45,164 nt of DNA from Anaerolineae bacterium. Lineage in GTDB: Bacteria; Chloroflexota; Anaerolineae; Aggregatilineales; J027. The translations under genes and the position numbers were made by a program. Below the pieces are notes generated by a model that worked only from the letters and a program-made list of their open reading frames with translations, was not told the origin of the DNA and made no database searches. Location of the stretch: contig JAJTXY010000034.1 in assembly GCA_021463865.1 (NCBI GenBank), positions 1-45,164 on the forward strand, read 5' to 3'. Below are positions 2,175 through 39,939 of this stretch, piece by piece. The number at the start of each line of letters is the position of its first letter. The stretch's first letter is position 1.

Positions 2175-5100
2175 TTAGGTGGCCTCACGCATCACTTCAT
2201 CAGCCAATGGCAGAGTAAAGTGGAAAGTCGTCCCCACATTGAGTTCACTTTCGACCCAAACTTGACCCCCGTGCTGCAAGATCAAGCCGCGTGTCAGCAC
2301 CATGCCTAGGCCTGTGCCGGGTTGGTCGGTGGCTTTGGCGTTGTCGGTACGGAAATATTTCTCACGGAACAGACGTTTTTGATCTTCTTCCGAAATACCG
2401 ATGCCCGTGTCTATGATCTGGACATGCAGCACACGCCGCGCCCCTTCTGTATCCCACAAATTGACCGATTCATCTACCTTGACCGTGACCTTACCACCGG
2501 GCGGGGTATATTTGTTGCCGTTGGTCAAGAAGTTGGTCATCACTTGAATGAGGCGTTTGTGGTCGCCCCAGATAAAGGGCAAATCATCACGGACTTCCAA
2601 AACCACCTGCTGTTGGCGGTCTTCAAACTGCTGCTGCAAGGGGATAAGGCTTTCGCGGCAAACCTGTGCAAAGGCCACCGACCCCATTTCTAACCGCATC
2701 TGACCAGATTCATAACGCTCGATGTCACGCAAGTCAGAAACCAGCGCATCCATACGATTAACCGCATTATAGATCGTTTTCAAAAAGTCACCTTGCTGGT
2801 CGTTAATTGGCCCGACCACCCCACGCATCAGCAGGTCGGTATAACCTTTCATCGAGGTCATCGGGGCTTTGAGTTCGTGGGCAATAAACGACACAAACTC
2901 GGCGCGGGCCTCTTGTTGATGCCGCAGTTGGTCAAACAACTGCGCATTGGCAATAGCAGGGCTGGCATGGTCAGCCAACCGCGACAGGAATTGCAGGTCT
3001 AGCAGGTTGAGGTCGGTCTCGTTATCGCTTTCCAGCAAGATAATCCCAATCGCTTCGTTGGCGCTGATAATCGGCACCACAATTTGTGAGACCGCATCCG
3101 GGTACGTTTCAATATAATCCGGGTCTGTTTTGAGGCTCCGTGAAAAAACGGGGGTTGCCGAGCGAATCACACGCCCCCAAATCCCCTCTTCAATTGAAAA
3201 CTCGTTGCCGACCCCTTCAAAAAAGAGTGACCCCATCGGATAGTTCCGAACAGCAGCCAAGCGCATCATATTGCTGTCGGGCTTCACCACCGCCAGCGCT
3301 CCCACTTTGGCCTCGGCATGTTGAATAGCCCAGTTGAGGGTGATTTCCGCAACCTTGTACAGTTCCAACGTCTTATTCAACTGCTGGTCAATCGCGGCCA
3401 TCCGGTCAAGTTCTTCTACCCGTTGGAGCAGTTGGGCGTCTTGCGATTCAAACAACTTGGCGTTTTGAATGGCGACGGCTGCTTGTGCCGCAAACGTGGT
3501 CAACAGTTGGGCATCTTCTTCGGTAAAAATGCTGCGATCTTTCTTATTCAGAATTTGCAGCACCCCGATGGGCGACCCTTGCGAAATCAGCGGCGTGGTC
3601 AAGATGGCCCGCGAATGGAAGGTCATCTCGTCTTCATCTTCCTGCTTGACCACCTCCCCATGCCAACGGCTGTCTTGGGCGGTGTCATTCACAATGATGG
3701 GTTCACCACGTTTGAGGGCTTCGGCAGAAAGGCTGCTGGCATCTTTGGAAATGCGCTTGCCAACGAGTGCCCCGGCGGTTGGCCCCAACGCGACATGGAA
3801 CACCAAGTCGCCTGTTGGATCATCCAACAGTAGCAGGCTACCCGCTTCGGCTTTGAGAATTTCCATCGCGCTTTGGGTGATGATATTTAACAGGCGGTCA
3901 AGGTCTTCAATCGCAAAGGATAGCTGGCTAGAAATCTGATTCAGAGCTTCCAATTGGCGGGTACGGATTTGCGTCGCCTCGAACAAACGGGTTTTGTCAA
4001 TCGCGCTGGCTGCAACGTTGGCAATATCCGAAAACAAACGCATCTGGTCGTCGCTGTAACGGATGGTGGGGTCGTTTGTCCCGACAGACATCACCCCCAA
4101 CGCGCCTTTCGTTGTATCAGCCGTCAGCGGCACGGCCATCCACGCCTTCATTTGTTGATATAGGGGTTCGACTTCGGCATTTGGATTGATACGGCGCAGT
4201 TCCGCCGCATAATCGGGGGTCAGTGTAATTTTCTGGGTATTGACAACCTCGCTTAACAAATCGCGCCCCATTGTCCAGCGCCGACCTTCGACATGCTCCA
4301 AACGTTCATCGCCTCTAGCAAAGAAAGCATAATACAAATGCCCCGACAGATGGTCGGCAATCGCAATTGAGAAAATATCGGCCTCAATCACGCGGGTCGT
4401 TTGGGCATAGAGCAGTTCCATCAACGTGTCAAAGTCAATCGCAAAGTTGAGTGCGCGGGAGACTTGGCTCAACACGTCTTGAATCTTGAACCGGCGTTCA
4501 AGGTCTTGCACGATCTGGGCACGTTCCAATGCAAGGGCGGCTTGGTCGGCGATATTTTGAATAAAGCGCAGGTCTTCATAGCTATAAGCCTCACCGTTGC
4601 GCCGTGGCCCCACCGCCAAAAAGCCATTTAACTGTCGTCGCCCCTTTAGACTGACAAAAATCGGCGTATTCAAAATCGCCAACTTGGAGCGTTCCTGATA
4701 GACCATCGGGGGTAATTGCGCCCCCGGCTCCAAATAGAGCAGGCTGGCCTCGGTTTGGAGATAATGCCCCAACCCACTCTTGAATGGGAACGTAATATCG
4801 GTGATGGGGCGTCCGCTTTCCGGGTTGACGTGTGCCACAAATTCCTGTGCCTCGCTGTCTCGCACAAACAAGAGCACATCCGTCGGGGCAAGCGTCTCTT
4901 GCATCGGTTGGCGAATGGAGCGATCCACGTCATCCAAGTTTAGGGCGTTGGTCATGGAACGAATCACTTCATCAAGGCGTTCCCGATATTGGCGGCGCGT
5001 CTTGAACCAGACATTATCAATTTGTTCGCGCAGGCGATTGCGTATCGGCACAAACCCCACAGCCATAAACAAGACAATCGCGGCGATTAAGAGCGGGCTA

Positions 5101-6380
5101 TCGGCATTAAACGCCTTAATGCCAATCCAACTTAACCCGCTTACTACTATGAAATAGGCCACAATCAATGACCCACCCAACGCATGGTAGACAATCACTG
5201 CCGGAATCAAGCGATCTGTTTCCAGTAAATGATATTGGGTAACGGCATAGGCTACCGTTAGCACAAACAACACCGCCAATGTCTGCACAACAGGGGTTGA
5301 CCATGTGGGGGCTTCGCCGCCGCTGGCTAATTGGTAAATCGTCCAGAGCAGGAGGGGGAATAATCCGAAAAACGTCGCTAAAAGGGCATAGCTGGCTTGT
5401 TCTCGGAATACAGGCGACGAGGTGTATTGCCGCCGCGAGAGCATAATCACACTCATGCCAAACGCGCCAAGCATCGTCACGATAATCGGAATCAGCAGGG
5501 CGATCTCATTGTCATTGATATAGAGTTGATAGATGAGCGGGGTCAAAATCAACCCGACCATCAGCGGGGCATACCGTACCGCCGGAATCCGTTCGACCAC
5601 TGCCAGATTGGAGGGGAAGGTCATGCCAAAACTGACCAGCAGACCACCCAACATAGAGCCAGCGAGTATCCATAAGGGAACTAGCTCGTGAGTGGTCATC
5701 AAATCTAGGCGACCCATTTCCACCACTGCCAAAGCCGCACAAATGCCCGTCAAAAATTGGGCCGACAGTGCTTCAATGCGCCGCAACAGCACAAATATCC
5801 CTACGCCCAACATGACCAATCCGGCGAAAAATCCAACGCCAAAATGGGCAATCAAGTCGGCCAGAGGAAATGCGGTTAATTTGAGTAACACTTCAGAAAT
5901 GACAGTGTTGTTTTCACCGGGATAGGAACGTTCCACTTGGGAAAGACCGCTGCCCTCACGCTCCACTTTGACCAATACCCGATTCCCCACTTCCAAGCCA
6001 TTTAATAGATCGTTTAGGGATTTCAGTGGGTCGTCTACTTGCCTCAGGTCTACTTGATTGGAGCCGCTCTCCGCAGCAATAATTCGATCCCCAGATTTCA
6101 TGCCCACATCCCAGCCCGACCATGTTTCATTGCTGAACGGCCCCACCGGTTGGACTTTGGCATCGTGGGTAAGCATGACACCAAGGAAGGGACGACTTTG
6201 AAATTGGAGTGCAAGCACTAAATAGGCGAGCGCGGCAATAGCGGCAACCGTAATTGCCCCAATGACGACGACATAATTCAATCGCCGTATTATTGGATTG
6301 GTTTGAGACGCAGCAAGTTCGGGTTTGACCTCTACTTCGGCTGCATAGGCTTCGTTTTGTCGTGGCAAGACCACTTTCAT
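2175..6380 (-). CDS. Large membrane sensor histidine kinase: PDZ-like, multi-TM, four GAF domains
   Basis: About 1401 aa from the ATG at 6380; an in-frame TTG at 6407 is the alternative start. Order: one N-terminal membrane segment; a PDZ-like extracytoplasmic module (GMKSGDRIIA); a hydrophobic region with roughly eight or more membrane segments; then about four GAF-type modules (roughly residues 480-1130) with typical GAF phrases such as TTPLISQGSPIGVLQILNK. HisKA follows with the phosphoacceptor in FIAHELKAPMTS (about H1168), then a HATPase_c domain with N box (NFLTNGNKYTPP), G1 (DTGIGISEED) and G2 (GTGLGMVL). It should autophosphorylate on His and pass phosphate to a response regulator. 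None is adjacent; the nearest receivers are at 27-29.5 kb. No receiver is fused to it. Confidence 0.93.
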   Translation of the reverse strand: MKVVLPRQNEAYAAEVEVKPELAASQTNPIIRRLNYVVVIGAITVAAIAALAYLVLALQFQSRPFLGVMLTHDAKVQPVGPFSNETWSGWDVGMKSGDRIIAAESGSNQVDLRQVDDPLKSLNDLLNGLEVGNRVLVKVEREGSGLSQVERSYPGENNTVISEVLLKLTAFPLADLIAHFGVGFFAGLVMLGVGIFVLLRRIEALSAQFLTGICAALAVVEMGRLDLMTTHELVPLWILAGSMLGGLLVSFGMTFPSNLAVVERIPAVRYAPLMVGLILTPLIYQLYINDNEIALLIPIIVTMLGAFGMSVIMLSRRQYTSSPVFREQASYALLATFFGLFPLLLWTIYQLASGGEAPTWSTPVVQTLAVLFVLTVAYAVTQYHLLETDRLIPAVIVYHALGGSLIVAYFIVVSGLSWIGIKAFNADSPLLIAAIVLFMAVGFVPIRNRLREQIDNVWFKTRRQYRERLDEVIRSMTNALNLDDVDRSIRQPMQETLAPTDVLLFVRDSEAQEFVAHVNPESGRPITDITFPFKSGLGHYLQTEASLLYLEPGAQLPPMVYQERSKLAILNTPIFVSLKGRRQLNGFLAVGPRRNGEAYSYEDLRFIQNIADQAALALERAQIVQDLERRFKIQDVLSQVSRALNFAIDFDTLMELLYAQTTRVIEADIFSIAIADHLSGHLYYAFFARGDERLEHVEGRRWTMGRDLLSEVVNTQKITLTPDYAAELRRINPNAEVEPLYQQMKAWMAVPLTADTTKGALGVMSVGTNDPTIRYSDDQMRLFSDIANVAASAIDKTRLFEATQIRTRQLEALNQISSQLSFAIEDLDRLLNIITQSAMEILKAEAGSLLLLDDPTGDLVFHVALGPTAGALVGKRISKDASSLSAEALKRGEPIIVNDTAQDSRWHGEVVKQEDEDEMTFHSRAILTTPLISQGSPIGVLQILNKKDRSIFTEEDAQLLTTFAAQAAVAIQNAKLFESQDAQLLQRVEELDRMAAIDQQLNKTLELYKVAEITLNWAIQHAEAKVGALAVVKPDSNMMRLAAVRNYPMGSLFFEGVGNEFSIEEGIWGRVIRSATPVFSRSLKTDPDYIETYPDAVSQIVVPIISANEAIGIILLESDNETDLNLLDLQFLSRLADHASPAIANAQLFDQLRHQQEARAEFVSFIAHELKAPMTSMKGYTDLLMRGVVGPINDQQGDFLKTIYNAVNRMDALVSDLRDIERYESGQMRLEMGSVAFAQVCRESLIPLQQQFEDRQQQVVLEVRDDLPFIWGDHKRLIQVMTNFLTNGNKYTPPGGKVTVKVDESVNLWDTEGARRVLHVQIIDTGIGISEEDQKRLFREKYFRTDNAKATDQPGTGLGMVLTRGLILQHGGQVWVESELNVGTTFHFTLPLADEVMREAT

Positions 6381-6450
6381 AGTATTTACGCCGCCCCAAT
6401 AATTCAATTGCAGAAGAATTTAAAGGTAGAATAAAGACCATCGTCTAGGG

Positions 6451-20163: not shown

Positions 20164-21243
20164 TTATTCCACCATTGCCACATTCATATTAATCAATGGG
20201 CCGGGATCGAGGTGAATATAGTCGCCTGTGCGGAAATGACAGGCCGCCATGTGCCCAGCTTGTCCCGGTACTTCCAACAAACGGGGATGTTCGGTCTTGC
20301 AAATATCCTGTGCAATCGGGCAACGCGGGTGGAAACGACAACCGCTGGGCGGATTAATCGCGTTAGGGATTTCACCACGTGGCATTGGGGCAGGGCGACG
20401 GAAGCGTGGGTCTGGCACGGGCACAGCCGCCAGCAACGCCTCAGTATAGGGGTGCTTTGGATTGGTATAAACCGTTCTGATATCACCCACTTCGATGATC
20501 TCACCCAAATACATAATCGCAATCCGGTCACAGATATATTTGGCCGTCGCAAGGTCGTGGGTAATAAACAGATACGTCAGGCCAAATTCACGCTGAAGTT
20601 GTACCATCAAATCCAACAAAATCGCCTTCACCGACACATCCGCCATCGCAATCGGCTCGTCCGCCAAAATCAATTTCGGCTGCATCACCAAGGCCCGTGC
20701 AATTACTGCACGCTGGCGCTGACCACCCGAAATCTGATGGGGATAGCGATCAAAATAAGCATCACCGGGGGTTAACCCAACCTTTTCGAATATTTCACTG
20801 ACGCGGTGACGAAATTCCTGTTGGCTGTTTACTAGACGATGAATTTTAAGGCCGTGCCCAACACCTTCACCCAACGACATGCGCGGGTTCAGACTTGCCA
20901 TCGGGTCTTGGAAAATCACCTGCATGTAGCGGCGCATTTTCCGTAACTCTTCGCCACTGAGATTGTTCAGGTGGACATCCTCAAAAACGACTTCGCCTTC
21001 GGTTGGTTCTAATAGACCAACCCCCAAACGGCCTGTGGTAGATTTGCCCGAACCGGATTCGCCAACCAAGCCAAAAACTTTACCCTGCTCAATTTCAAAT
21101 GAGACCCCGTCTACAGCATGGACATATTGCTGCTCACCAACCCGCATGATTTGTTGAAGCAGGTCACGTTTCACCGGGAAATATTTTTTAACGTCTTGCA
21201 GCCGTAAGATCGTATTGCTGCTGGAAGAATTATTTTCACTCAT
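20164..21243 (-). CDS. Peptide/nickel-type ABC transporter ATP-binding protein (OppF/DppF-like)
   Basis: 359 aa. Walker A GESGSGKST, the signature SGGQRQR and Walker B LILADEPIAMADVS are all present. The C-terminal oligo/dipeptide extension carries the cysteine motif (CRFHPRCPIAQDIC) typical of OppD/OppF and proposed to hold an Fe-S cluster. It pairs with the next ATPase to power import through the two permeases. The family's usual 'DEP-S-LD' is DEPIAMADVS here, an uncommon D-loop region. It is the last gene of the five-gene operon, 10 bp after its neighbour's stop. Confidence 0.93.
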   Translation of the reverse strand: MSENNSSSSNTILRLQDVKKYFPVKRDLLQQIMRVGEQQYVHAVDGVSFEIEQGKVFGLVGESGSGKSTTGRLGVGLLEPTEGEVVFEDVHLNNLSGEELRKMRRYMQVIFQDPMASLNPRMSLGEGVGHGLKIHRLVNSQQEFRHRVSEIFEKVGLTPGDAYFDRYPHQISGGQRQRAVIARALVMQPKLILADEPIAMADVSVKAILLDLMVQLQREFGLTYLFITHDLATAKYICDRIAIMYLGEIIEVGDIRTVYTNPKHPYTEALLAAVPVPDPRFRRPAPMPRGEIPNAINPPSGCRFHPRCPIAQDICKTEHPRLLEVPGQAGHMAACHFRTGDYIHLDPGPLINMNVAMVE

Positions 21244-21253
21244 AGCACTCTAT

Positions 21254-22327
21254 TTAATACCGCCTTGCCTGCGTTGCGCCTTGATATTCTTGATGCAGCC
21301 AGCATGACGCCAGATGCTTGTCATAACCGCCGACTTGCTCATCCCCTTCGCCAATTTCATCCACCCGCACCAGCCATGGCTGCTTTTGATGGCAAATATC
21401 CATAACATGCGGGCAGCGCGGATGAAAACGACAGCCGCTGGGGGGCATCACCAAATTCGGTGGTGTCCCATCCATACGATACAGGTCTTGGCTATCCATC
21501 GCAATATTTGGCACACTCCGCAGCAAGCCCTGTGTATACGGATGTTTAGGATTGTGGAACAATTCATCTACATTCGCAACTTCGGCCAAGCGTCCGGCAT
21601 ACATCACTGCGACCCGATCCGCCAATTCTGCCACAATGCCGATATTATGCGTCACCAGCAAAATCGTCAGGCCAAATTCGTCTTTGAGTTCGCGCAGCAG
21701 ATCCAAAAATTGGGCCTCGACGATCACATCCAGCGAAGTCGTCGCTTCGTCGGCAATGATGATATTGGCCTTGAGCGCGAGGGCCAAACCAATCATCACA
21801 CGTTGGCGCATCCCCCCCGAAAGCTGATGGGGATATTCTTTTAAGCGTCTCCGACCTATTCCCAGCCGCTCCATCAACGATTCCGAACGAGACAACGCCT
21901 CATCTTTGCTGATGTTTGGCTCATGTACGCGGATGGCTTCGATGATGTGATTATCAATGCGCTGCACCGGATTGAGCGAGGTCATGGGGTCTTGGAAAAT
22001 CATACTGATTTGTTTGCCCCGTACATCGCGCATCTGATTTTCGTCATACGCCATCAAGTCTTGATTTTTGAAAATCAACTGGCCTTTGGTGATACGACCC
22101 GGCGATGGAATCATCCGCATAATCGCCTTGCCGAGGGTGGATTTGCCCGAACCGGATTCACCGACCAACCCCAACACTTCCCCCTTATACAGGTCAAGCG
22201 ATAAGGTATCAATCGCGCTCAAGACCCCACGTCGGGTTTGATACTCCACGCTTAGATCACGGATAGAGAGGATAATTTCTTGTTTATTGACCTGACTGTG
22301 ATCAGGCACGACTTGAAAAAGTGACAT
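21254..22327 (-). CDS. Peptide/nickel-type ABC transporter ATP-binding protein (OppD/DppD-like)
   Basis: 357 aa. Walker A GESGSGKSTLG, signature LSGGMRQR, Walker B IIIADEATTSLDV and the H-loop LLVTHN are intact. The C-terminal oligopeptide extension has CRFHPRCPHVMDIC. The start has an excellent ribosome site (TTAGGAGGGG). It lies 11 bp downstream of the second permease gene. Confidence 0.94.
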   Translation of the reverse strand: MSLFQVVPDHSQVNKQEIILSIRDLSVEYQTRRGVLSAIDTLSLDLYKGEVLGLVGESGSGKSTLGKAIMRMIPSPGRITKGQLIFKNQDLMAYDENQMRDVRGKQISMIFQDPMTSLNPVQRIDNHIIEAIRVHEPNISKDEALSRSESLMERLGIGRRRLKEYPHQLSGGMRQRVMIGLALALKANIIIADEATTSLDVIVEAQFLDLLRELKDEFGLTILLVTHNIGIVAELADRVAVMYAGRLAEVANVDELFHNPKHPYTQGLLRSVPNIAMDSQDLYRMDGTPPNLVMPPSGCRFHPRCPHVMDICHQKQPWLVRVDEIGEGDEQVGGYDKHLASCWLHQEYQGATQARRY

Positions 22328-22338
22328 GGCATCCCCTC

Positions 22339-23772
22339 CTAAGCCCGATTCAGGCGCGGGTTCAAAATTTCGCTGAGGCTTTCGCCCAACATGCTAAAGC
22401 ATAAAGTTAGCAGGGCAATCGCAAGGCCGGGGAACGTCACCAACCACCATTCGCCACCGACGACGAATTGGCTGCCTTTGGAGAGGTCAACGCCCCAATC
22501 CGGCACCGTCTCTGGCAAACCCAGACCGAGAAATGCCAGACCCGCCCCTGTCAAAATCGCGTCGGCAACATTAATGGAGAAAATCACCACCACCGAGGCC
22601 ACGACATTCGGAAACACATAGCGGATCAAAATAATGGGATTGGTTGCCCCCAGACTCTTGGCTGCTTCAACATAGGCCACTTCACGAATCGCCAAGGTTT
22701 GCGAACGCACCAAGCGGAAATACGTTGGCACATAAATCACGGCAATTGCAAGGATAATGTTCCCAATACCCGGCCCCAAGACGGCGGCAATCGCAATCGC
22801 CAGCACCAAGCCGGGGAAGGCATATAGGCTGTCCATAATGAGCGATAGCACACGATCCAAAACCCCACCGAGATAGCCGCTGATAAGGCCCAACGGAATC
22901 CCAAATAGGCAGGAGCAAATCGCGGCGCTAATGCCAATTAACAAAGTGTTCTGCGTACCATAAATCAGGCGGCTAAACACATCGTACCCCAACAAATTCG
23001 TACCGAATAGGAAACCCCCTTGATGAGTAGGGCCAACCGTCCCGACGATCCGTAAATTCGGATATTCGGATACCAGATCCCGAAATTGGGTTTCCTCACC
23101 GACAATCGCCACCAACGGGCGACCTCGTTCAGCCGTCACATCCGAGGTAGACAACAATTCAAGGGCCTCAATTGGCTCCAATCCGGTTGCTTCACGGTTG
23201 ACCTCAACTCGAATGCCAGCCGTATCACGTTCTTGCCCCACGATACGGTTGGCTTTTTCATCAATCGCCCCGACACTCTTGGCATTGCTAGTACGTTCAA
23301 TCAACTCGCCCGTGTTGATGTCATAACCTATGTCGGCAAAATTTTCATACGGGAGTTCAGTCCGCGTAATCAAGATATAACTGGCTGGGACTTCGCGTGG
23401 GCCTAAACGGGCGGGGCCAGCTTCTTCGTCGTAGACGTAAGGCGCAAGATATTCTGGGACAATACCGACGATGATAAACAGCACCAGTACCAACCCGCTT
23501 ATTATTGCTAACCACCAGTCAGTCCCATGCCAACGGCGGGCTTCGCGCACGGTGCGGCTAGATAGGATTAGGCCCGTTACGGCCACGACATTCAGTATCG
23601 CCCAAAATTGGAGGATGCCTTTGACCCCCTCAACATCCAGCGCAAAATACAAAAACGCGAGGAGGGCTGCAATCAGCAGACTGACCCCGCCCCATATACG
23701 CCACGTTTTGCGGATAGTGCCCATCAGGGAGGCACGCGGTTGAACAAATATTTCTGCGGTTGTGGTTGCCAT
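22339..23772 (-). CDS. ABC transporter permease (OppC/DppC-like) with long extracytoplasmic insertion
   Basis: 477 aa, much longer than the usual ~300. Three N-terminal membrane segments (about residues 25-120) are followed by about 140 soluble residues (about 125-270). The standard permease core then starts around GTNLLGYDVFSRLIYGTQNT. The EAA loop that contacts the ATPases is EAAKSLGATNPIILIRYVFPN. In typical OppC-type proteins a single helix precedes a short linker, so the insertion is unusual and faces the outside. SD AGGAAAA before ATG 23772. Confidence 0.92.
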   Translation of the reverse strand: MATTTAEIFVQPRASLMGTIRKTWRIWGGVSLLIAALLAFLYFALDVEGVKGILQFWAILNVVAVTGLILSSRTVREARRWHGTDWWLAIISGLVLVLFIIVGIVPEYLAPYVYDEEAGPARLGPREVPASYILITRTELPYENFADIGYDINTGELIERTSNAKSVGAIDEKANRIVGQERDTAGIRVEVNREATGLEPIEALELLSTSDVTAERGRPLVAIVGEETQFRDLVSEYPNLRIVGTVGPTHQGGFLFGTNLLGYDVFSRLIYGTQNTLLIGISAAICSCLFGIPLGLISGYLGGVLDRVLSLIMDSLYAFPGLVLAIAIAAVLGPGIGNIILAIAVIYVPTYFRLVRSQTLAIREVAYVEAAKSLGATNPIILIRYVFPNVVASVVVIFSINVADAILTGAGLAFLGLGLPETVPDWGVDLSKGSQFVVGGEWWLVTFPGLAIALLTLCFSMLGESLSEILNPRLNRA

Positions 23773-23783
23773 AATTTGTTTTC

Positions 23784-24887
23784 CTAAAACCGAATACGTG
23801 GGTCAATAAACGCATAGAGAATGTCAGTTAGGGTACTCATGACACCCACTGTGATGGCAAACACCACTACCGCCCCTTGTACGACCGGATAATCACGTAG
23901 GGCGATCCCATCGCGCAGCAATTTACCCAGTCCATCCCATGAGAACGTGGTTTCCGTCAGTACGGCCCCCGCCAGTAGCACCGCAACTTGCAGTCCAATG
24001 AGGGTCATAATGGGAATGAAAGAGTTTCGCAGGGCATGGAAATAGACGACTTTGCGTTCCGGTACCCCTCTCGCACGCGAGGCAGTCACATAGTCTTCTT
24101 GTAATATTTCGACCATATTGGAACGGGTCAGGCGGATGAACACCCCTACCAACGCCACTGTCAGCGTAATAGTTGGTAATATAAGGTGCTTCAAAACATC
24201 CCCAAAGGCTTTCCAATGACCCGCCAGCAGGGTGTCTATCAAATAAAAATTGGTCCTATGTTCAAATTCATTGACATAACCCGGATTAATCCGTTGGGCA
24301 ACGGGCAATATATTGAATTCACGCGCAAACACAATTTGCAACATTAGCCCTAGCCAAAAAATGGGGACTGCATAGGCAATGACGCTGGTAATACGAAATG
24401 CATAATCCATCGTGCTTTTGTGTCTATTGGCGGAAAGCGCACCGCTGGAAATACCAAACAGGAGCATGAGTATAATTGAGGGGATGACCAATTCAATTGT
24501 TGCCGGAAAACGTCGCCCGATAATTTCTGTCACTGGCCGATCCAACTCTACATTATTGGAAACCCCCAAATCACCGCGCACAATGTCGGTAAGGTAATCC
24601 CAATATTGCTCGTGAATCGGGCGATCTAGACCAGCCCGTTCGCGTAATCGTTCGAGAGTCGCTTGGTCAGTACCGGGTTTTAAGCGGGTCGAGATTGGAT
24701 CGCCGGGTAAGATACGCATCATGACAAACACCAGCGTCACCAATACCCAGATCATCGGCACCACCAATAATAAACGTGTGATGACATAATTTCGTAGTGA
24801 ACGGCTGCCGGTCAGGATTGCATAGAGCAAAAACAGACCGATAATCAGCAATCCCCCCCCGCATATTGTGCCAAATGTGAGTTCCAT
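23784..24887 (-). CDS. ABC transporter permease (OppB/DppB-like)
   Basis: 367 aa. The family opening (TRLLLVVPMIWVLVTLVFVMMRILPGDP) is preceded by one extra hydrophobic segment of about 25 residues. The EAA loop reads TASRARGVPERKVVYFHALRNSFIPI, and the C-terminus ends in the usual DPRIRF. It forms the membrane channel with the OppC-like subunit, whose gene starts 11 bp downstream. Confidence 0.93.
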   Translation of the reverse strand: MELTFGTICGGGLLIIGLFLLYAILTGSRSLRNYVITRLLLVVPMIWVLVTLVFVMMRILPGDPISTRLKPGTDQATLERLRERAGLDRPIHEQYWDYLTDIVRGDLGVSNNVELDRPVTEIIGRRFPATIELVIPSIILMLLFGISSGALSANRHKSTMDYAFRITSVIAYAVPIFWLGLMLQIVFAREFNILPVAQRINPGYVNEFEHRTNFYLIDTLLAGHWKAFGDVLKHLILPTITLTVALVGVFIRLTRSNMVEILQEDYVTASRARGVPERKVVYFHALRNSFIPIMTLIGLQVAVLLAGAVLTETTFSWDGLGKLLRDGIALRDYPVVQGAVVVFAITVGVMSTLTDILYAFIDPRIRF

Positions 24888-24943
24888 AGCTGCAAAGCCT
24901 TACTTTTACAAAATGTTTTTAAACTTTTGCAGATTATACAAGA

Positions 24944-24988
24944 AAGAGAGGGACGTGCTAGACTTTGAAATCCAACACGTCCCCTCCC
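24944..24988 (-). promoter_or_regulatory. Intra-operon hairpin between binding protein and permease genes
   Basis: A stem with 8 perfect pairs (GGGACGTG/CACGTCCC) plus flanking GAGG/CTC pairs sits in the 131-bp gap. It is followed on the minus strand by TTTCTTG. In such operons a hairpin here often protects or partly terminates the binding-protein mRNA, giving excess binding protein. A perfect TATAAT (minus strand, just after it) has no good -35. Confidence 0.6.
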
Positions 24989-25018
24989 TAATTTTGCATT
25001 CAACTAACTGCTACGCGC

Positions 25019-26599
25019 TTATTCAACGGGTTGTAGCAAACGATATTCCAGTACCAGCGGCGCTCCAACGATCACATTGGTAACACGAGTGACGTTCCAC
25101 ACCATATATTCTGGGCTAGTCACCAACGGGATAGTGGGTACTTGTTCCGCATAGTAGTCTTGGAGTACAGCTAGGGCTTCTTCACGATCATCGGTGGCAG
25201 CCCGTGACTGTGAGATGAGTTCGTCCATTTGCGGATCATTAAAATTGATGCCCAAACCAACCGAGTCAATGCTGCGAGCAAATGGCGCAATGTAGTTGTC
25301 GGCGTCTGGATAGTCGAAGAACCAGCCGAGGAAGAAGAATGGATATTCACCAGCTGTAGCAGCGGGGCGATAACTGCTCCACTCTTGGCTTTGGAGTGTG
25401 ATTTCAACCAAACCCGTTTCTTCAATCTGTTCCTTCACAATTGCCATCGCGTCGGTAGACCAACCACCATAGCGGTCAGGTGGGAACCACAATTCGATTT
25501 GCAGTTTGTTGTCAGCGCTATAGCCTGCTTCAGTCAAGTCAGCAATTGCACCTTCCAGATCACGCACGTCATACAGATCAAGATAACTTTCGGTAGCACC
25601 AGCAAAGCCGGGAGGTACCATGCTGTAAATTGGATTGGCAAGGCCGCCGATTGCACGATCAACAATTTCATCGCGGTCAACTGCTTTGGCAAACGCGCTG
25701 CGTACTAACACGTTATTTACGGGTTCTTTTGTAACATTGAACGCCAAGTAACGGATGCCACCCGGTAGGGTAATGGCTTCAAGTTCTTCTGTTTCTCCAA
25801 GACGTTCTACTTCCGTAGCCGTTACGGTACGCCATGCCATATCAATATCACCATTTTCAATAGCAAGCGTCAATTGAGAGTCATCCTCATAGTAAGTGAA
25901 AATCACTTCCTCATAGGCAGGTGCTTCACCATAATAATTGGGATTGACTTGGAAGGTTGCTTCTTCGCTGATGGTATAACTCACCAGTTGATAGGGGCCA
26001 ACACCATGCATCGCTGGCGGGGTATTGTTGATAGCATCCATCGGAAGATCGCCTTCTTGGAAGGGATAGAACGCTGGCATTGAGCACATTTTGATGTTGA
26101 AAAGGGGGTCGGGTTCACTCAAAGTGAAAACGACGGTGTTGGGGTCGCTGCCGGGAGCCACATTCGTCACCAAGTTAATCAAACCATACACACTCCCTTG
26201 CAGGGCTAGGCTGCGGTTTGCCCACTGTGAGTAGATTTCAGGGGTCAGCACAGTGCCGTCGGGGAACATGGCATCATCACGCAGAGTGAAGGTGTAGGTC
26301 AACCCATCCTCGGAGCGCACTGGGAAGTCAAGTGCCAGACGCGGTTCGCAGTCGGTGCTACCGGGGATGTAGGCCAACAAACCTTCGGACACGTTGCGCA
26401 GAATTTCCCAGTCATGGAAAGAGTAGGCCTCAGCCGGGTCAAGGGATGAAATGTCGTCGGTGGTGCCGATGACCAGACGAGTGACATCTTGACGGGTCGC
26501 CGCTGATTTTTGTTCAACGGGCTGATTGGCACTGACGATACCAACACCGATGGTCGTGACCAAAAGTGCAAGTACCAGCAAAAGGCTAATACGCTTCAT
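25019..26599 (-). CDS. Peptide/nickel-type ABC transporter substrate-binding protein (SBP_bac_5)
   Basis: 526 aa with a Sec signal peptide (hydrophobic core 5-20, likely cut after VSA). There is no lipobox cysteine, so it is not an obvious lipoprotein, although the organism is probably a monoderm-like Chloroflexota. Family features: ISSLDPAEAYSFHDWEILRNVSEGLL near the N-terminus, YTFTLRDDAMFPDGT, GVGPYQLVSY, and the closing segment AEQVPTIPLVTSPEYMVWN. The substrate cannot be read from sequence; peptides, dipeptides or oligosaccharides are all possible. The ATG at 26599 has AGGAG 9 nt upstream. It is the first gene of the operon. Confidence 0.94.
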   Translation of the reverse strand: MKRISLLLVLALLVTTIGVGIVSANQPVEQKSAATRQDVTRLVIGTTDDISSLDPAEAYSFHDWEILRNVSEGLLAYIPGSTDCEPRLALDFPVRSEDGLTYTFTLRDDAMFPDGTVLTPEIYSQWANRSLALQGSVYGLINLVTNVAPGSDPNTVVFTLSEPDPLFNIKMCSMPAFYPFQEGDLPMDAINNTPPAMHGVGPYQLVSYTISEEATFQVNPNYYGEAPAYEEVIFTYYEDDSQLTLAIENGDIDMAWRTVTATEVERLGETEELEAITLPGGIRYLAFNVTKEPVNNVLVRSAFAKAVDRDEIVDRAIGGLANPIYSMVPPGFAGATESYLDLYDVRDLEGAIADLTEAGYSADNKLQIELWFPPDRYGGWSTDAMAIVKEQIEETGLVEITLQSQEWSSYRPAATAGEYPFFFLGWFFDYPDADNYIAPFARSIDSVGLGINFNDPQMDELISQSRAATDDREEALAVLQDYYAEQVPTIPLVTSPEYMVWNVTRVTNVIVGAPLVLEYRLLQPVE

Positions 26600-27002: not shown

Positions 27003-29141
27003 ATGCCATCTCTGCTGACCCAATTGGTATGCCGGGATTGTGGTCATGCAATGTCGCCTGACCCCCTAGCCAAAACATGTGAAAAATGCGGTTCGGCTTG
27101 GATCGAAGCCGATTATGATTTCGAGACCGCCAAGAAAATTTGGTCGGCTGGTTTGCGTGATCGTGAAAGCGACCTCTGGCGGTACGAAGAATTATTGCCC
27201 GTCGCCCGCCCCGAACGTCCTATCACAATGGGTGAGGGATGGACGCCGTTGATTCATGCCATCAACCTTGAAAAAGAACTCAAGCTCCCCAATATTTTCA
27301 TTAAAGATGAGCGCCAAGGCCCGACCAGTTCTTTCAAAGATCGTCAGGCAGCGGTTGGCGCAGCGGCGTTGGTCCAAGCCAATAAAAACGAATGTGTCCT
27401 AGCCTCAACGGGCAACAAAGCAGCGGCATATGCGGCCTATTGTGCCAGAGCCGGTATCCGCCTATGGATTTTCCTCACCAGCATGGTACCCAACGAAAAA
27501 CTGCGTGAACTCGGTCTCTATGGGGCGGAGGTGGTCAAAATCGCCGGGACGTATGACCAAGCCAAAAAGGTCGCCCAAGATTTTGCCGAACGCCGCAATC
27601 TCTATCTTGACCCCGGGACAACCGCCATCCCTGGCAAAGAAGGCCTTAAGACCATCGCGTTTGAAATCGCCGAGCAGTTGGCGCGTTATGCCCCCACGTC
27701 GGATGGTAAATGGCGTGCCCCCGATTGGTATATCCAAGCGGTGAGTGGCGGCATTGGCCCAATTGGGATTTGGAAGGGCTTTCAAGAACTGATGCGCATG
27801 GGCCTGATTGATAAAATGCCCAAACTTGGCATTATCCAAGTTGAAGGCTGTGCGCCAATGGTCGAGGCGTGGACACTGGGGAAGGATGAAGCCGAACCCG
27901 TTACCCCGCGTACCCGCATATCCGTCCTTGCCACTGGCGACCCCGGGCGCGGCTATAAAATTTTGCGTCAAGCCTGCCTCGAAACAGGCGGCACGATGAT
28001 TTCCGCCAATGATGGGGCAGCCTTCCGTGCTATGCGCCGACTGGCCCGCAGCGAAGGCCTCAGCATGGAACCTGCCGCGTCGGTGGCCTTTGCTGGGCTA
28101 GAGCAGTTGGCTGCTGAAGGCCTGCTAAAACCAGAGGAATTTATCGTCGTCAATTGTTCGGGTCACACCTTCCCGGCTGAAAAACACGTTTTGGAAGACG
28201 AGTACGTGCTCGATCTCCAACTTGGGCATCCTGAAGGCGAAATGGCCGCCACCAATAAGATTGAGGAAGGTCTTGGGGCCGCTCTTGCCAAATTAGATGA
28301 GCAAGTCACCACAGTCGTGATTATTGACGATAATCCACAAGACAGCCGTCTCATCCGCCGCCTGCTACAAAATCATAAGAATTATCGCGTCTTTGAGGCC
28401 AACAATCCGCTAGATGGCCTTGACCTCGTGCGCCAGCGCAAACCCGATCTGGTCGTCAGCGACCTGACCATGCCCGAAATGGATGGGTTTACCCTCCTTG
28501 AAAGCCTGAAAGCCGATCCCGATACCCGTGATATTCCGGTGGTCGTGGTCTCGGCAAAAACCTTGACCGCACGCGATCGTGCCGTCCTTGAAGGTCAAGT
28601 AGATTCGCTGTGGCAAAAAGGTAGCTTTAACACCCGTGAGTTGGTTGACCACGTGGTAGAGCGTCTAGGCAGTAATTTAAAATCGCCCGACCAACCTATC
28701 AAAACGACGGTTGGCGAGGTTGCCAGTAGCGTCGTAGATGCGTTAGAGGCCGTTGCCGAAACCAAAGTCCTAGTCATTGACGATAATCGCCGTGATGCAC
28801 GCCTAGTCCGCCGCATTTTGGAGGCCACTCGGCGCTATCAGGTCTTGGAAGCCTATACGGGTAAAGATGCCAAGACCATGCTCGAAGAGAGCCTGCCACG
28901 CCTCATTGTCCTTGATATGATGCTGCCCGACACCGATGGGATTACCCTGTTAAGAGAACTCAAAGCCAGTGAGCGCCTCAAGGCCATCCCCATTGTCATT
29001 TTGACCGCCAAAGACCTATCTGAAGACGAAAAGGCCATCTTCCGAGAAAACAATTGCAGCGTCTGGGTAAAACCATCATTAGATCGCCAAGCGTTAGTCG
29101 CGCATGTGGATAAAATTATCAGCGAAAAGGACGCAAAGTAA
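27003..29141 (+). CDS. Threonine synthase-like PLP enzyme fused to two receiver (REC) domains
   Basis: 712 aa. Residues 1-400 are a fold-type II PLP enzyme close to threonine synthase. It has an N-terminal zinc ribbon (C10, C13, C26, C29), GEGWTPL (78-84), the Schiff-base lysine in SSFKDRQA (K112), ASTGNKAAAYAA (134-145) and the phosphate loop SGGIGPIG (248-255). A linker leads to REC1 (about 436-555; acidic pair D442-D443, phospho-Asp D487, S517, K539) and REC2 (about 587-708; D593-D594, D638, T668, K690). Threonine synthase makes threonine from O-phosphohomoserine; the exact reaction here is not proven. Both receivers keep the phosphorylation residues. The stop overlaps the next ATG (TAATG). 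Confidence 0.93.
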   Translation: MPSLLTQLVCRDCGHAMSPDPLAKTCEKCGSAWIEADYDFETAKKIWSAGLRDRESDLWRYEELLPVARPERPITMGEGWTPLIHAINLEKELKLPNIFIKDERQGPTSSFKDRQAAVGAAALVQANKNECVLASTGNKAAAYAAYCARAGIRLWIFLTSMVPNEKLRELGLYGAEVVKIAGTYDQAKKVAQDFAERRNLYLDPGTTAIPGKEGLKTIAFEIAEQLARYAPTSDGKWRAPDWYIQAVSGGIGPIGIWKGFQELMRMGLIDKMPKLGIIQVEGCAPMVEAWTLGKDEAEPVTPRTRISVLATGDPGRGYKILRQACLETGGTMISANDGAAFRAMRRLARSEGLSMEPAASVAFAGLEQLAAEGLLKPEEFIVVNCSGHTFPAEKHVLEDEYVLDLQLGHPEGEMAATNKIEEGLGAALAKLDEQVTTVVIIDDNPQDSRLIRRLLQNHKNYRVFEANNPLDGLDLVRQRKPDLVVSDLTMPEMDGFTLLESLKADPDTRDIPVVVVSAKTLTARDRAVLEGQVDSLWQKGSFNTRELVDHVVERLGSNLKSPDQPIKTTVGEVASSVVDALEAVAETKVLVIDDNRRDARLVRRILEATRRYQVLEAYTGKDAKTMLEESLPRLIVLDMMLPDTDGITLLRELKASERLKAIPIVILTAKDLSEDEKAIFRENNCSVWVKPSLDRQALVAHVDKIISEKDAK

Positions 29142-29509
29142 TGGCTAAACGGATTTTGTATGTGGAAGATAACGCCCAAAATAAGCGCCTCGTTCGCAAA
29201 ATCCTTGTTTCACGAGGCTATGAGGTGCTTGAGGCGGAGGATGGCTTGGCGGGGGTCGAGATTACCAAAAATGAATTACCCGATTTAATTCTGATGGATA
29301 TCAACATCCCCGGCATGGACGGCCTCGAAGCAACAGGCGTTATCAAAGCAACCACGGAGACCAAACATATCCCAGTCATTGCCTTGACCGCCAACGCCAT
29401 GCGTGGAGACGCTGAACGATTTCTTGCAGCCGGGTGCGATGGATATTTACCCAAACCTATCAATATGACCGAACTACTTGAGACGGTGCGTGGTTTTCTT
29501 GGAGAATAA
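29141..29509 (+). CDS. Stand-alone response regulator receiver protein (CheY/DivK-like)
   Basis: 122 aa, a single REC domain with acidic pair E9-D10, phospho-Asp D53 (LILMDINIPGMDG), T83 (ALTANAM) and K105 (YLPKPI). It has no output domain, so it probably relays phosphate or binds a partner. The opening (RILYVEDNAQNKRLVRKIL) resembles DivK-type receivers that serve hybrid kinases. Its start shares one base with the stop of the PLP-REC-REC gene, which implies translational coupling and a shared pathway. Confidence 0.94.
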   Translation: MAKRILYVEDNAQNKRLVRKILVSRGYEVLEAEDGLAGVEITKNELPDLILMDINIPGMDGLEATGVIKATTETKHIPVIALTANAMRGDAERFLAAGCDGYLPKPINMTELLETVRGFLGE

Positions 29510-38013: not shown

Positions 38014-39939
38014 ATGTCCGCCCTACAACAAATTATTGACCATTTGCGCGTGCAGCGCCGAGATTTAACGACGCCCTATCTAATCCCCGGCCTCTGGATA
38101 GATTTTCAAACGACTGCCGCTCAAAATGTGAACCCATATGATTTTTATGCCCAACGCCTCCAAGATATTTTGGACTCACCCCGTCAACCGGTTGTTCAAG
38201 GAGAACCGGGGGGCGAATGGACTCGTTACGCCATCACCTACAATATGTTTCCACGCCTAACTACGGCCTTTGACCACGACAATTCTGGCAAGCTAGAAAT
38301 CGGGTCAAATCGGGGTGGCTGGCGCGACACAGGGACACTGCTCAAATCCATCGCGTTTCTGCCCTTCCTGCGCTCCATGAATTTCAACACTGTCCATCTC
38401 CTCCCCATCACCGCCGTTGGGCAGGATGGCAAAAAGGGCACATTGGGTTCACCCTATGCTATTCGCAATCCCTATAGACTAGATGAGAACCTTGCCGAAC
38501 CCGGTTTAGTCGGGATAGATGTCGAAACGCTGTTTAAAGGGTTTATGGAAGCAGCCCATCGGCTGGGTTTGCGCGTCGTGATGGAATTTGTCCTGCGCAC
38601 CGCCGCCCGCGACTCGGATTGGGTCAAAGAACACCCCGACTGGTTTTATTGGATTCACGCCGATATTCCTGACCGTGCAGCGGGGTCACGTAACCCCAAA
38701 GCCTTTGGTAGCCCCATCTGGCCGCACGACAAATTGGAAGAAATTCATCATCGGGTCGGACGTGGACAGTTACACGATTTACCCGCCCCGCCGGAAAGCT
38801 ATCGTAAGATGTTCACTAGCACACCCCGCCCTGAAAATATCGAGATGCACGATGGGCGTTGGTATGGCCGACTAGACGATGGCACAATCGCTCGCATCCC
38901 CGGTGCGTTCACCGATTGGCCTCCCGAAGATGCCCAACCCCCGTGGACAGACGTGACCTACCTCCGCCTTTACGACCATCCCGATTTTAATTATATGGCC
39001 TACAACACCCTCCGCATGTACGACGCCCGTATCGCACAGCCGGAAAATATCGTCCACCCCCTGTGGGATGCAGTGGAGGGCATTATCCCTCACTATCAAA
39101 TCAACTATGGCATTGATGGGGTCATGCTCGATATGGGCCATTCCCTGCCGAAACCCCTCAAGCAGCGCGTGATACAAAAAGCCCGGTCACTTGACCCCGA
39201 TTTTGCCTTTTGGGGCGAAGATTTTAGCATAGGCCGCCACAGCCGCGATGAAGGCTATAACGCGGTCATGGGTTATTTGTTTTATGACCTGCACCAGCCT
39301 GAAAAAATGCAGCAGTTTATTGACCGTATCGCCCGCCACGACCCCGGCATCACCTTTTTTACAGCGGCTGAAAATCATAATACCCCGCGTCATGCCTCCC
39401 GCCAAAATATGTTGGCTCAATGTCATCAGGCCTTGTTATACATGGTTGGATTACCGGGGATGCCCTTTATCTGCACAGGCTTTGAGGTCTTTGAAAACCG
39501 ACCCATCAACACCGGCGTCGGCTTTGCCCACGAAGACATTCGCACCTATCCCCCCGAACGCCTACCGCTCTTTAGCGAACACGCTTTTGACTGGACACGC
39601 AAAGACAATATGGTCGGGGCAATTCGTTATGCCATGCACCTCCGCCGCCAACACAGCGACCTCTTAAGCAATACCAATTCCCATACTTTGACGGCAGGCA
39701 GTTCCAACAACCCGCGTATTTTGGTCTTTTTCCGCACCGACGAGGATTATATTTTGGTCTTTGCGTTTAACATGACCCTCTATGATTTTCAGTCGGGGGA
39801 GGCCGAAATCTTTGCCCAAGACTATACAGCCAATGGATTATGGGGATTTGAGGGCGTCACCCGTATGAGTGAACGTCTCTCCATTCATGTCGAGCTTGGC
39901 GGTGGTCATAGCATGATGTTCAGGGTCAACAACAAATAG
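38014..39939 (+). CDS. GH13-like alpha-amylase family protein
   Basis: 641 aa, cytoplasmic. The TIM-barrel motifs are NFNTVHLLPI, LGLRVVMEFVLRTAARDS (region II position), GIDGVMLDMGHSLP (nucleophile candidate D373), FAFWGEDFS (acid/base candidate E402) and TAAENHNTPR (about 451-459) where most GH13 enzymes have NHD. A C-terminal beta domain (about 560-641) is of the amylase type. The arrangement resembles GlgE-like (GH13_3) proteins more than starch amylases, but substrate and activity are inferred. The ATG at 38014 has GAGGA upstream. Its TAG stop lies in repeat copy 3. Confidence 0.8.
   Translation: MSALQQIIDHLRVQRRDLTTPYLIPGLWIDFQTTAAQNVNPYDFYAQRLQDILDSPRQPVVQGEPGGEWTRYAITYNMFPRLTTAFDHDNSGKLEIGSNRGGWRDTGTLLKSIAFLPFLRSMNFNTVHLLPITAVGQDGKKGTLGSPYAIRNPYRLDENLAEPGLVGIDVETLFKGFMEAAHRLGLRVVMEFVLRTAARDSDWVKEHPDWFYWIHADIPDRAAGSRNPKAFGSPIWPHDKLEEIHHRVGRGQLHDLPAPPESYRKMFTSTPRPENIEMHDGRWYGRLDDGTIARIPGAFTDWPPEDAQPPWTDVTYLRLYDHPDFNYMAYNTLRMYDARIAQPENIVHPLWDAVEGIIPHYQINYGIDGVMLDMGHSLPKPLKQRVIQKARSLDPDFAFWGEDFSIGRHSRDEGYNAVMGYLFYDLHQPEKMQQFIDRIARHDPGITFFTAAENHNTPRHASRQNMLAQCHQALLYMVGLPGMPFICTGFEVFENRPINTGVGFAHEDIRTYPPERLPLFSEHAFDWTRKDNMVGAIRYAMHLRRQHSDLLSNTNSHTLTAGSSNNPRILVFFRTDEDYILVFAFNMTLYDFQSGEAEIFAQDYTANGLWGFEGVTRMSERLSIHVELGGGHSMMFRVNNK

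Follow-up and report, generated by a model that had tools for sequence, protein, structure and literature searches.

The DNA analysed here (the window) is a stretch of 45,164 nucleotides from an Anaerolineae bacterium of the phylum Chloroflexota (contig JAJTXY010000034.1 of assembly GCA_021463865.1), and the subject of the analysis is a forward-strand gene in which a pyridoxal 5'-phosphate (PLP) dependent enzyme domain of the PALP family is joined to two response regulator receiver (REC) domains. The open reading frame (ORF) at 27003–29141 runs from ATG to TAA with no internal stop and encodes a protein of 712 amino acids (aa). Pfam returned PALP and two stretches of Response_reg (8.4e-38) on this chain and no DNA-binding or other output domain. 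The stop codon shares one base with the start codon of the next gene (TAATG), which encodes a free-standing REC protein, REC3. A preliminary description of the window, made from the sequence alone, had read the locus in the same way, as a PLP enzyme with intact active-site residues and two REC domains in one chain, followed by a free REC gene overlapping by one base; the residues, the intact ORF and the junction were all found in the sequence. The features are listed below with their positions in the window. Conservation counts here and further on refer to an alignment of 91 sequences, made up of the window protein and 90 relatives.

27003–29141, plus strand: PALP-REC1-REC2 ORF, 712 aa, stop codon included (ORF reading, Pfam)
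27030–27089, plus strand: zinc ribbon with Cys 10, 13, 26 and 29 (all four Cys in 90 of 90 covering sequences)
27222–28163, plus strand: PALP domain, residues 74–387, threonine-synthase fold, PLP fold type II (PF00291, 1e-62)
27336–27338, plus strand: Lys112, the expected PLP Schiff-base lysine (Lys in 90 of 90; aligns with SFKDRG of solved threonine synthases)
27744–27761, plus strand: SGGIGP, residues 248–253, the expected PLP-phosphate loop, at the GNxGN position of threonine synthases (alignment)
28266–28301, plus strand: linker stretch EGLxxALxxLDE, residues 422–433, between PALP and REC1 (conservation in 91 sequences)
28314–28649, plus strand: REC1, residues 438–549, with phospho-Asp D487 and K539 (Pfam; D443, D487 and K539 in 91 of 91)
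28761–29108, plus strand: REC2, residues about 587–702, with phospho-Asp D638 and K690 (both in 27 of 27 sequences with REC2)
29141–29509, plus strand: free REC protein (REC3), 122 aa (Pfam Response_reg, 4.5e-28)

Structural comparison was restricted to residues 6–406. The best match was 2c2b (Z 44.8, root mean square deviation (rmsd) 2.5, 389 residues aligned), and the 11 threonine-synthase entries in the comparison gave Z scores of 37.9–44.8. AlphaFold2 was used to model the full-length protein (predicted template modelling score, pTM, 0.58) and residues 1–565 (pTM 0.68). The domains are folded in these models and the linker between PALP and REC1 has a predicted local distance difference test score (pLDDT) under 50 in both. 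A helix is placed at 424–431, within this stretch of pLDDT under 50.

Conservation of the active site, receivers and linker

The residues expected to bind PLP were retained throughout the alignment. K112 and STGN were present in 90 of 90 sequences, and SGGxG and Ser/Thr386-Gly in 91 of 91. The SGGxG motif, which in the window protein forms part of SGGIGPIG (residues 248–255), is followed by Pro in 90 of the 91 sequences and by Leu in one. In REC1, D/E442-D443, D487, S/T517 and K539 were found in every sequence, as were D638, S/T668 and K690 in the 27 sequences that bear REC2. The catalytic residues of the PLP domain and of the receivers are essentially invariant across the family.

The preliminary description had singled out a Gln-Lys-Gly in REC1 as a possible difference between the two receivers. 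The triplet is present (residues 538–540), but Lys-Gly turned out to be a trait of the family and not peculiar to the window protein, Gly following Lys539 in 89 of the 91 sequences and Gln preceding it in 66. The linker stretch EGLxxALxxLDE comes after a spacer of variable length and retains G423 in 89, L424 in 87 and A427 in 87 of the 91 sequences.

Distribution and origin of the fusion

A collection of 84,980 species was scanned with six peptide patterns of the window protein, a search that favours close relatives. This gave 78 loci, of which 34 (L009–L042) hold the PALP part and 44 match REC alone. A profile of 22 PALP domains was also run against 400 Chloroflexota genomes, with the four best first-look candidates per genome being scored. 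The family was located in at least 42 of these 400 genomes, that of the window among them, at 57 places that scored no less than 566 bits and have open frames between 549 and 1157 aa long. Scores then dropped from 566 bits to 284 bits, and below this gap the listed frames were mostly of 400–500 aa with a few of 523–585 aa. Within the order to which the window belongs, 108 of the 154 genomes gave a match at E <= 1e-110, representing 55 of the 61 genera, a result that rests on open-frame lengths (534 to 789 aa among the matches listed).

The 34 loci with a PALP part, 55 of the 57 places (L128–L182) and a paralogue from the window's own genome (L095) were examined by script. Each of these 90 loci carries PALP-REC or PALP-REC-REC as a single ORF, L017 and L039 being cut by contig ends, so that the doubt raised in the preliminary description, namely that relatives might lack the fusion, did not hold. 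The loci are not independent, as L009, L010, L014 and L015 are 95–99% identical to the window and several others are mutually close. A long form of about 700 aa with two REC domains and a short form of about 550 aa with one REC domain co-occur in many genomes, including that of the window (contigs C28 and C4). One member of 545 aa (L156:7001–8635, genome G110), in which Pfam recognised PALP and Response_reg, lies on a contig of 6,346,587 bases.

In Cyanobacteriota, the phylum of Microcoleus, the same PALP subfamily was found in 4 of 194 genomes at 483–505 bits. The ORFs in L249, L250 and L251 are complete and without REC (404, 420 and 398 aa) and that in L248 runs off its contig. The PALP subfamily is also a free-standing domain, REC-free in three of the four cyanobacterial loci. 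These REC-free members, placed in the family by profile match, are:

L250:7200–8381: cyanobacterial PALP protein without REC
L251:7313–8506: cyanobacterial PALP protein without REC
L249:6072–7286: cyanobacterial PALP protein without REC

By eye the cyanobacterial stretches have no neighbour genes in common, and there was no other match to the REC and kinase references in the four stretches. The C-terminal ends of the L250 and L251 proteins read CSGREKD where others have SGHT. In L243:1378–2624, from a metagenome-assembled genome (MAG) labelled Oscillatoriales (G557), a PALP gene of the family is split over two frames, and may be mis-binned or a pseudogene.

A FastTree phylogeny of the PALP domains was calculated with the window included and the truncated L039 left out. 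The 90 fused domains formed a single clade (0.998) that excludes the cyanobacterial proteins, the node joining all of them being weak (0.175). The simplest reading would be one fusion event in Chloroflexota. At E <= 1e-95 there were no matches in four other phyla, those of Alkalimonas (0 of 299 genomes), Scalindua (0 of 246), an Acidobacteria MAG (0 of 247) and Spirosoma (0 of 247); these are samples searched at a strict threshold, which show little alone, and the search was aimed at this PALP subfamily and not at PALP-REC fusions that arose independently in others.

Gene neighbourhood in relatives

A histidine kinase gene lies immediately upstream and on the same strand, as judged by profile, in 77 of the 88 loci that have an upstream gene (18 of 26 for the long form and 59 of 62 for the short form). 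The background rate in the same loci was 29 of 384 other genes. The preliminary description had stated that no kinase adjoins the fusion gene, which is correct for the window but does not hold as a rule. We selected 30 of the 77 adjacent kinases for a Pfam scan. All of them contain GAF, HisKA and HATPase, with HAMP in 8, dCache_1 in 5 and REC in 10. Patristic distances between kinase cores were correlated with those between PALP domains (r = 0.84 for 75 pairs, against a highest value of 0.11 in 1,000 permutations), a correlation that is confounded by descent and paralogy.

The next gene downstream encodes a same-strand REC or REC-histidine kinase (REC-HK) protein in 49 of 87 loci (22 of 26 for the long form and 27 of 61 for the short form), and in the long-form relatives it is a same-strand REC in 22 of 26. 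The contiguous genes that follow on the same strand, up to three per locus, include an EamA transporter at 30 of the 61 short-form loci and at none of the 26 of the long form. A GNAT acetyltransferase is encoded in these runs at 12 of the 26 long-form loci, compared with 3 of the 61 short-form ones. Pfam confirmed the assignment for five of the EamA proteins and two of the GNAT proteins. Some EamA proteins export threonine and homoserine. The paralogue in the window's own genome (G000:C4; L002; L095:6926–17999) lies in one same-strand run consisting of a large hybrid kinase, the PALP-REC protein (555 aa), a REC-HK and an EamA transporter. In L146, L149, L152 and others, a repeated pair of genes for a REC protein of about 240–260 aa and a REC-HK of about 520–570 aa stands on the opposite strand downstream, beyond EamA.

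Comparison with threonine synthase

The PALP domain resembles threonine synthase, ThrC (TIGR00260, NF006050/PRK08197; PDB 1uim, 1v7c, 2zsj, 2d1f, 6cgq, 1e5x and 2c2b), in its PLP fold type II, in the Schiff-base Lys in SFKDR, in the STGN loop and in the Ser/Thr-Gly near the C-terminal end. With the genome's own ThrC it also shares the N-terminal zinc ribbon. Apart from the fused REC domains, it differs in having KDER..KDRQ where ThrC has K.EG..KDRG, and at three further sites. All five solved threonine synthases compared, as well as the genome's own ThrC, have the Arg of N(P/S)xR(L/I)EGQKT and a GNxGN loop. None of the 91 family sequences has Arg in this column, where A, S, G, C or P stands instead. 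SGGxGP takes the place of GNxGN, with SGGxG in all 91. After STGN, where threonine synthases have Thr, all 90 sequences compared carry A, V or K. The threonine-synthase residues at these three sites are reported, from work on 1v7c, to contact the phosphate of the substrate.

The window protein scored under all six threonine-synthase equivalog cut-offs listed, for instance 269.7 against 303 for NF006050 and 141.5 against 167.1 for TIGR00260. Whether the genome holds a second, plain thrC had been proposed as a check in the preliminary description, and such a gene was found at G000:C56, with 262 bits to TIGR00260 and 306 bits to a plant threonine synthase. Twenty carrier genomes of our own selection were searched likewise. 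In 18 of them a thrC-like ORF apart from the fusion scored 264 bits or more, and the best separate ORFs in the remaining two, G072 and G192, scored 186.1 and 188.6. Because all 91 sequences lack both the Arg and GNxGN, and a plain thrC exists elsewhere in the genome, the PALP-REC protein is probably not a threonine synthase. The suggestion in the preliminary description that phosphorylation could tune threonine synthesis is not supported, since the family lacks residues that the solved enzymes have in common, even if one thrC cut-off is passed by some members.

Cysteate synthase was considered as another identity. It has the same fold (9k3c; Z 39.9, rmsd 2.5, 370 residues aligned), but the window protein reaches only 111.0 bits against a TIGR03844 cut-off of 324.9 and this identity was rejected. 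A plain PALP gene was observed just downstream of the PALP-REC gene in L036 (9931–11229), L132, L133, L135, L137, L140 and L144, the copy in L036 scoring 550.6 bits to NF006050. The divergent ThrC described in Microcystis (PMC12172450) might also be a member of this subfamily.

Candidate kinase for the window protein

The gene upstream of the fusion gene is on the opposite strand in the window and in its nearest relatives L009–L012, L014 and L015; the related loci L013 and L017 keep a kinase at this position. The PALP tree joins the window group with L013 and L017 at 0.985, the placement of L013 being weak (0.571). An adjacent kinase was likely lost in the window's group. A profile built from the adjacent kinase cores matched 69 places in the window's own genome. 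An orphan kinase at C23:273091–273789 ranked first (333.3 bits), followed by the kinase beside the C4 paralogue (313.6 bits). A FastTree phylogeny of kinases combined 75 adjacent cores with the 30 top-ranking own-genome cores out of 69. In it the C23 kinase was sister to the adjacent kinase of L013 (0.852), and both fell within a group, supported at 0.94, of adjacent kinases from long-form loci. The C23 kinase (L242:7074–15008) is a protein of 2,644 aa with dCache, HAMP, eight or nine GAF, PAS, HisKA and HATPase domains. Three of its neighbours were scanned and none were regulators, nor was there a REC match in that stretch.

The preliminary description had put forward a kinase of the window itself as a candidate phosphodonor:

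2175–6407, minus strand: multi-GAF histidine kinase (Pfam)

Its core ranked 22nd of 69 (163.7 against 333.3 bits) and in the tree stands well apart from the kinases next to the fusion genes of relatives, and it was set aside as donor. The profile ranking and the tree lend moderate support to the orphan C23 kinase as the best donor candidate for the window protein.

Two further parts of the window may be mentioned. Upstream of the fusion gene and divergent from it, positions 20164–26599 on the minus strand hold five same-strand ORFs that by eye resemble a peptide ABC transporter operon (solute-binding-like, permease-like). At 38014–39939 on the plus strand lies a protein of 641 aa with weak matches to debranching-enzyme/alpha-amylase models, the best at 2.6e-09.

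Discussion

On balance, with a little better than even confidence, we read the PALP-REC protein as a response regulator whose output is a PLP-dependent enzyme of threonine-synthase fold, most likely specific for a different substrate. REC1, and REC2 where present, would be phosphorylated by a dedicated histidine kinase with several sensor domains (GAF, often PAS, sometimes Cache-HAMP). The resulting change would be relayed through the conserved linker stretch, turning catalysis in the PLP domain on or off, and the downstream free REC may shuttle phosphate or drain it. For the window's group the donor would no longer be adjacent, with the orphan C23 kinase as candidate. The grounds for this are sequence-based, namely the architecture, the conservation, the adjacency of kinases in relatives, the parallel divergence of kinase and PALP domain and the missing threonine-synthase residues; from them we infer phosphorylation, catalysis and its substrate, switching, the donor and the role of REC3.

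Several observations weigh against this proposal. Of the 91 sequences, 57 have an Arg or Lys at column 212, which adjoins that of the missing Arg, so that the basic residue may have shifted there. Of the 27 fused places in 20 genomes, 8 pass the TIGR00260 cut-off (168.0 to 188.6 against 167.1), and the C4 paralogue also passes it (184.9–186.6) and nearly reaches that of NF006050 (300.3 against 303). The adjacent kinases do not make up one clade; some own-genome kinases come between the three groups that they form, and the kinase of L144 stands apart. The correlation of kinase and PALP distances is confounded as noted above. The packing of the domains is poorly defined in both structural models and no PALP-REC1 interface is claimed, and the support for the C23 kinase as donor is moderate.

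The main rival explanation, considerably less probable in our view, is that the PALP domain serves as a ligand sensor, an alternative that the preliminary description also raised, or as a scaffold. It would bind PLP and an amino acid, catalysis being no longer relevant, and would alter REC phosphorylation or the choice of partner, comparable to the role of PLP domains in MocR/GabR regulators. Much of the surroundings consists of signalling genes (kinases, free RECs and REC-HK), the PLP-binding residues would stay conserved in a sensor too, and the chain has no DNA-binding or other output domain by Pfam. The cyanobacterial members, however, share the active-site signature, and three of the four are complete proteins without REC. 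At 30 of the 61 short-form loci an EamA gene is among the three genes that follow on the same strand, which suits a made product better. It is unlikely that the protein is a genuine threonine synthase, converting O-phosphohomoserine to threonine under two-component control beside another ThrC. The nearest solved structures are indeed threonine synthases, and TIGR00260 is passed by the 8 fused places and the own-genome paralogue; against this, the window protein is below six equivalog cut-offs, the other 19 of the 27 fused places are below TIGR00260, the Arg and GNxGN are missing from the whole alignment and a separate thrC is present.

The REC domains might instead merely tether or localise a constitutively active enzyme, phosphorylation being without effect on catalysis. 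The low confidence of the linker in both models would suit such an arrangement, but the phospho-Asp and Lys of REC1 are invariant, the linker stretch is conserved and kinases adjoin the gene, which makes it very unlikely. An assembly or sequencing artefact that fused separate genes, by a frameshift or otherwise, has a negligible chance of explaining the data and was ruled out, as the same architecture recurs in 90 of 90 relative loci, including the one on the 6,346,587-base contig of G110.

Among known systems, the regulators of the MocR/GabR type carry a PLP domain in a transcription regulator with a DNA-binding domain in the chain, unlike the fusion protein, in which Pfam found no DNA-binding domain. 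In the LqsA-LqsR-LqsS and CqsA autoinducer systems the gene for a PLP-dependent enzyme lies beside kinase and regulator genes, the enzyme being of a different PLP fold and without REC fusion. Tandem-REC regulators of the PleD type (NF007135) likewise have two REC domains in one chain, and the PleD model was among the best REC matches. The output of PleD is a C-terminal GGDEF domain, whereas the window protein has an N-terminal PALP output instead.

The attachment of REC to metabolic enzymes is known, and the part of a published survey that deals with enzymatic outputs (PMC5847659) includes a KaiC-like NTPase, a glycosyltransferase, thioredoxin reductase and pyruvate phosphate dikinase. The PALP-REC proteins are similar to these enzymatic-output response regulators, as treated there, in the fusion of a receiver to an enzyme and in their narrow phyletic distribution, and differ in the PLP-enzyme output and the C-terminal position of REC (PMC5847659). 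The enzyme-output section of that survey names no PLP enzyme, and the words 'pyridoxal' and 'threonine' occur 0 times in its main text. In literature searches aimed at REC-enzyme and REC-PLP fusions no PLP-enzyme response regulator was found by titles and the opening lines of abstracts, the 2006 and 2010 output-domain surveys of Galperin being outside the scope of this comparison. While REC-enzyme fusion is a known kind of regulator, the PLP-enzyme output appears new within these bounds.

A more speculative extension, which we regard as quite unlikely, is that the protein makes a signal derived from an amino acid, with the kinase gating this synthesis directly by phosphorylation. The EamA protein encoded downstream would export the signal, and kinases of the same family that bear Cache domains would sense it on other cells. 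If true, the sensing and making of a signal would be coupled without a transcription step. Automatic 'threonine synthase' labels in Chloroflexota may conceal a different enzyme. The PALP-REC family is large and its catalytic residues are essentially invariant. If the reading of the protein as a response regulator with a PLP-enzyme output is true, a two-component system would in these bacteria act directly on small-molecule metabolism by way of a PLP enzyme, without transcription or a cyclic nucleotide.

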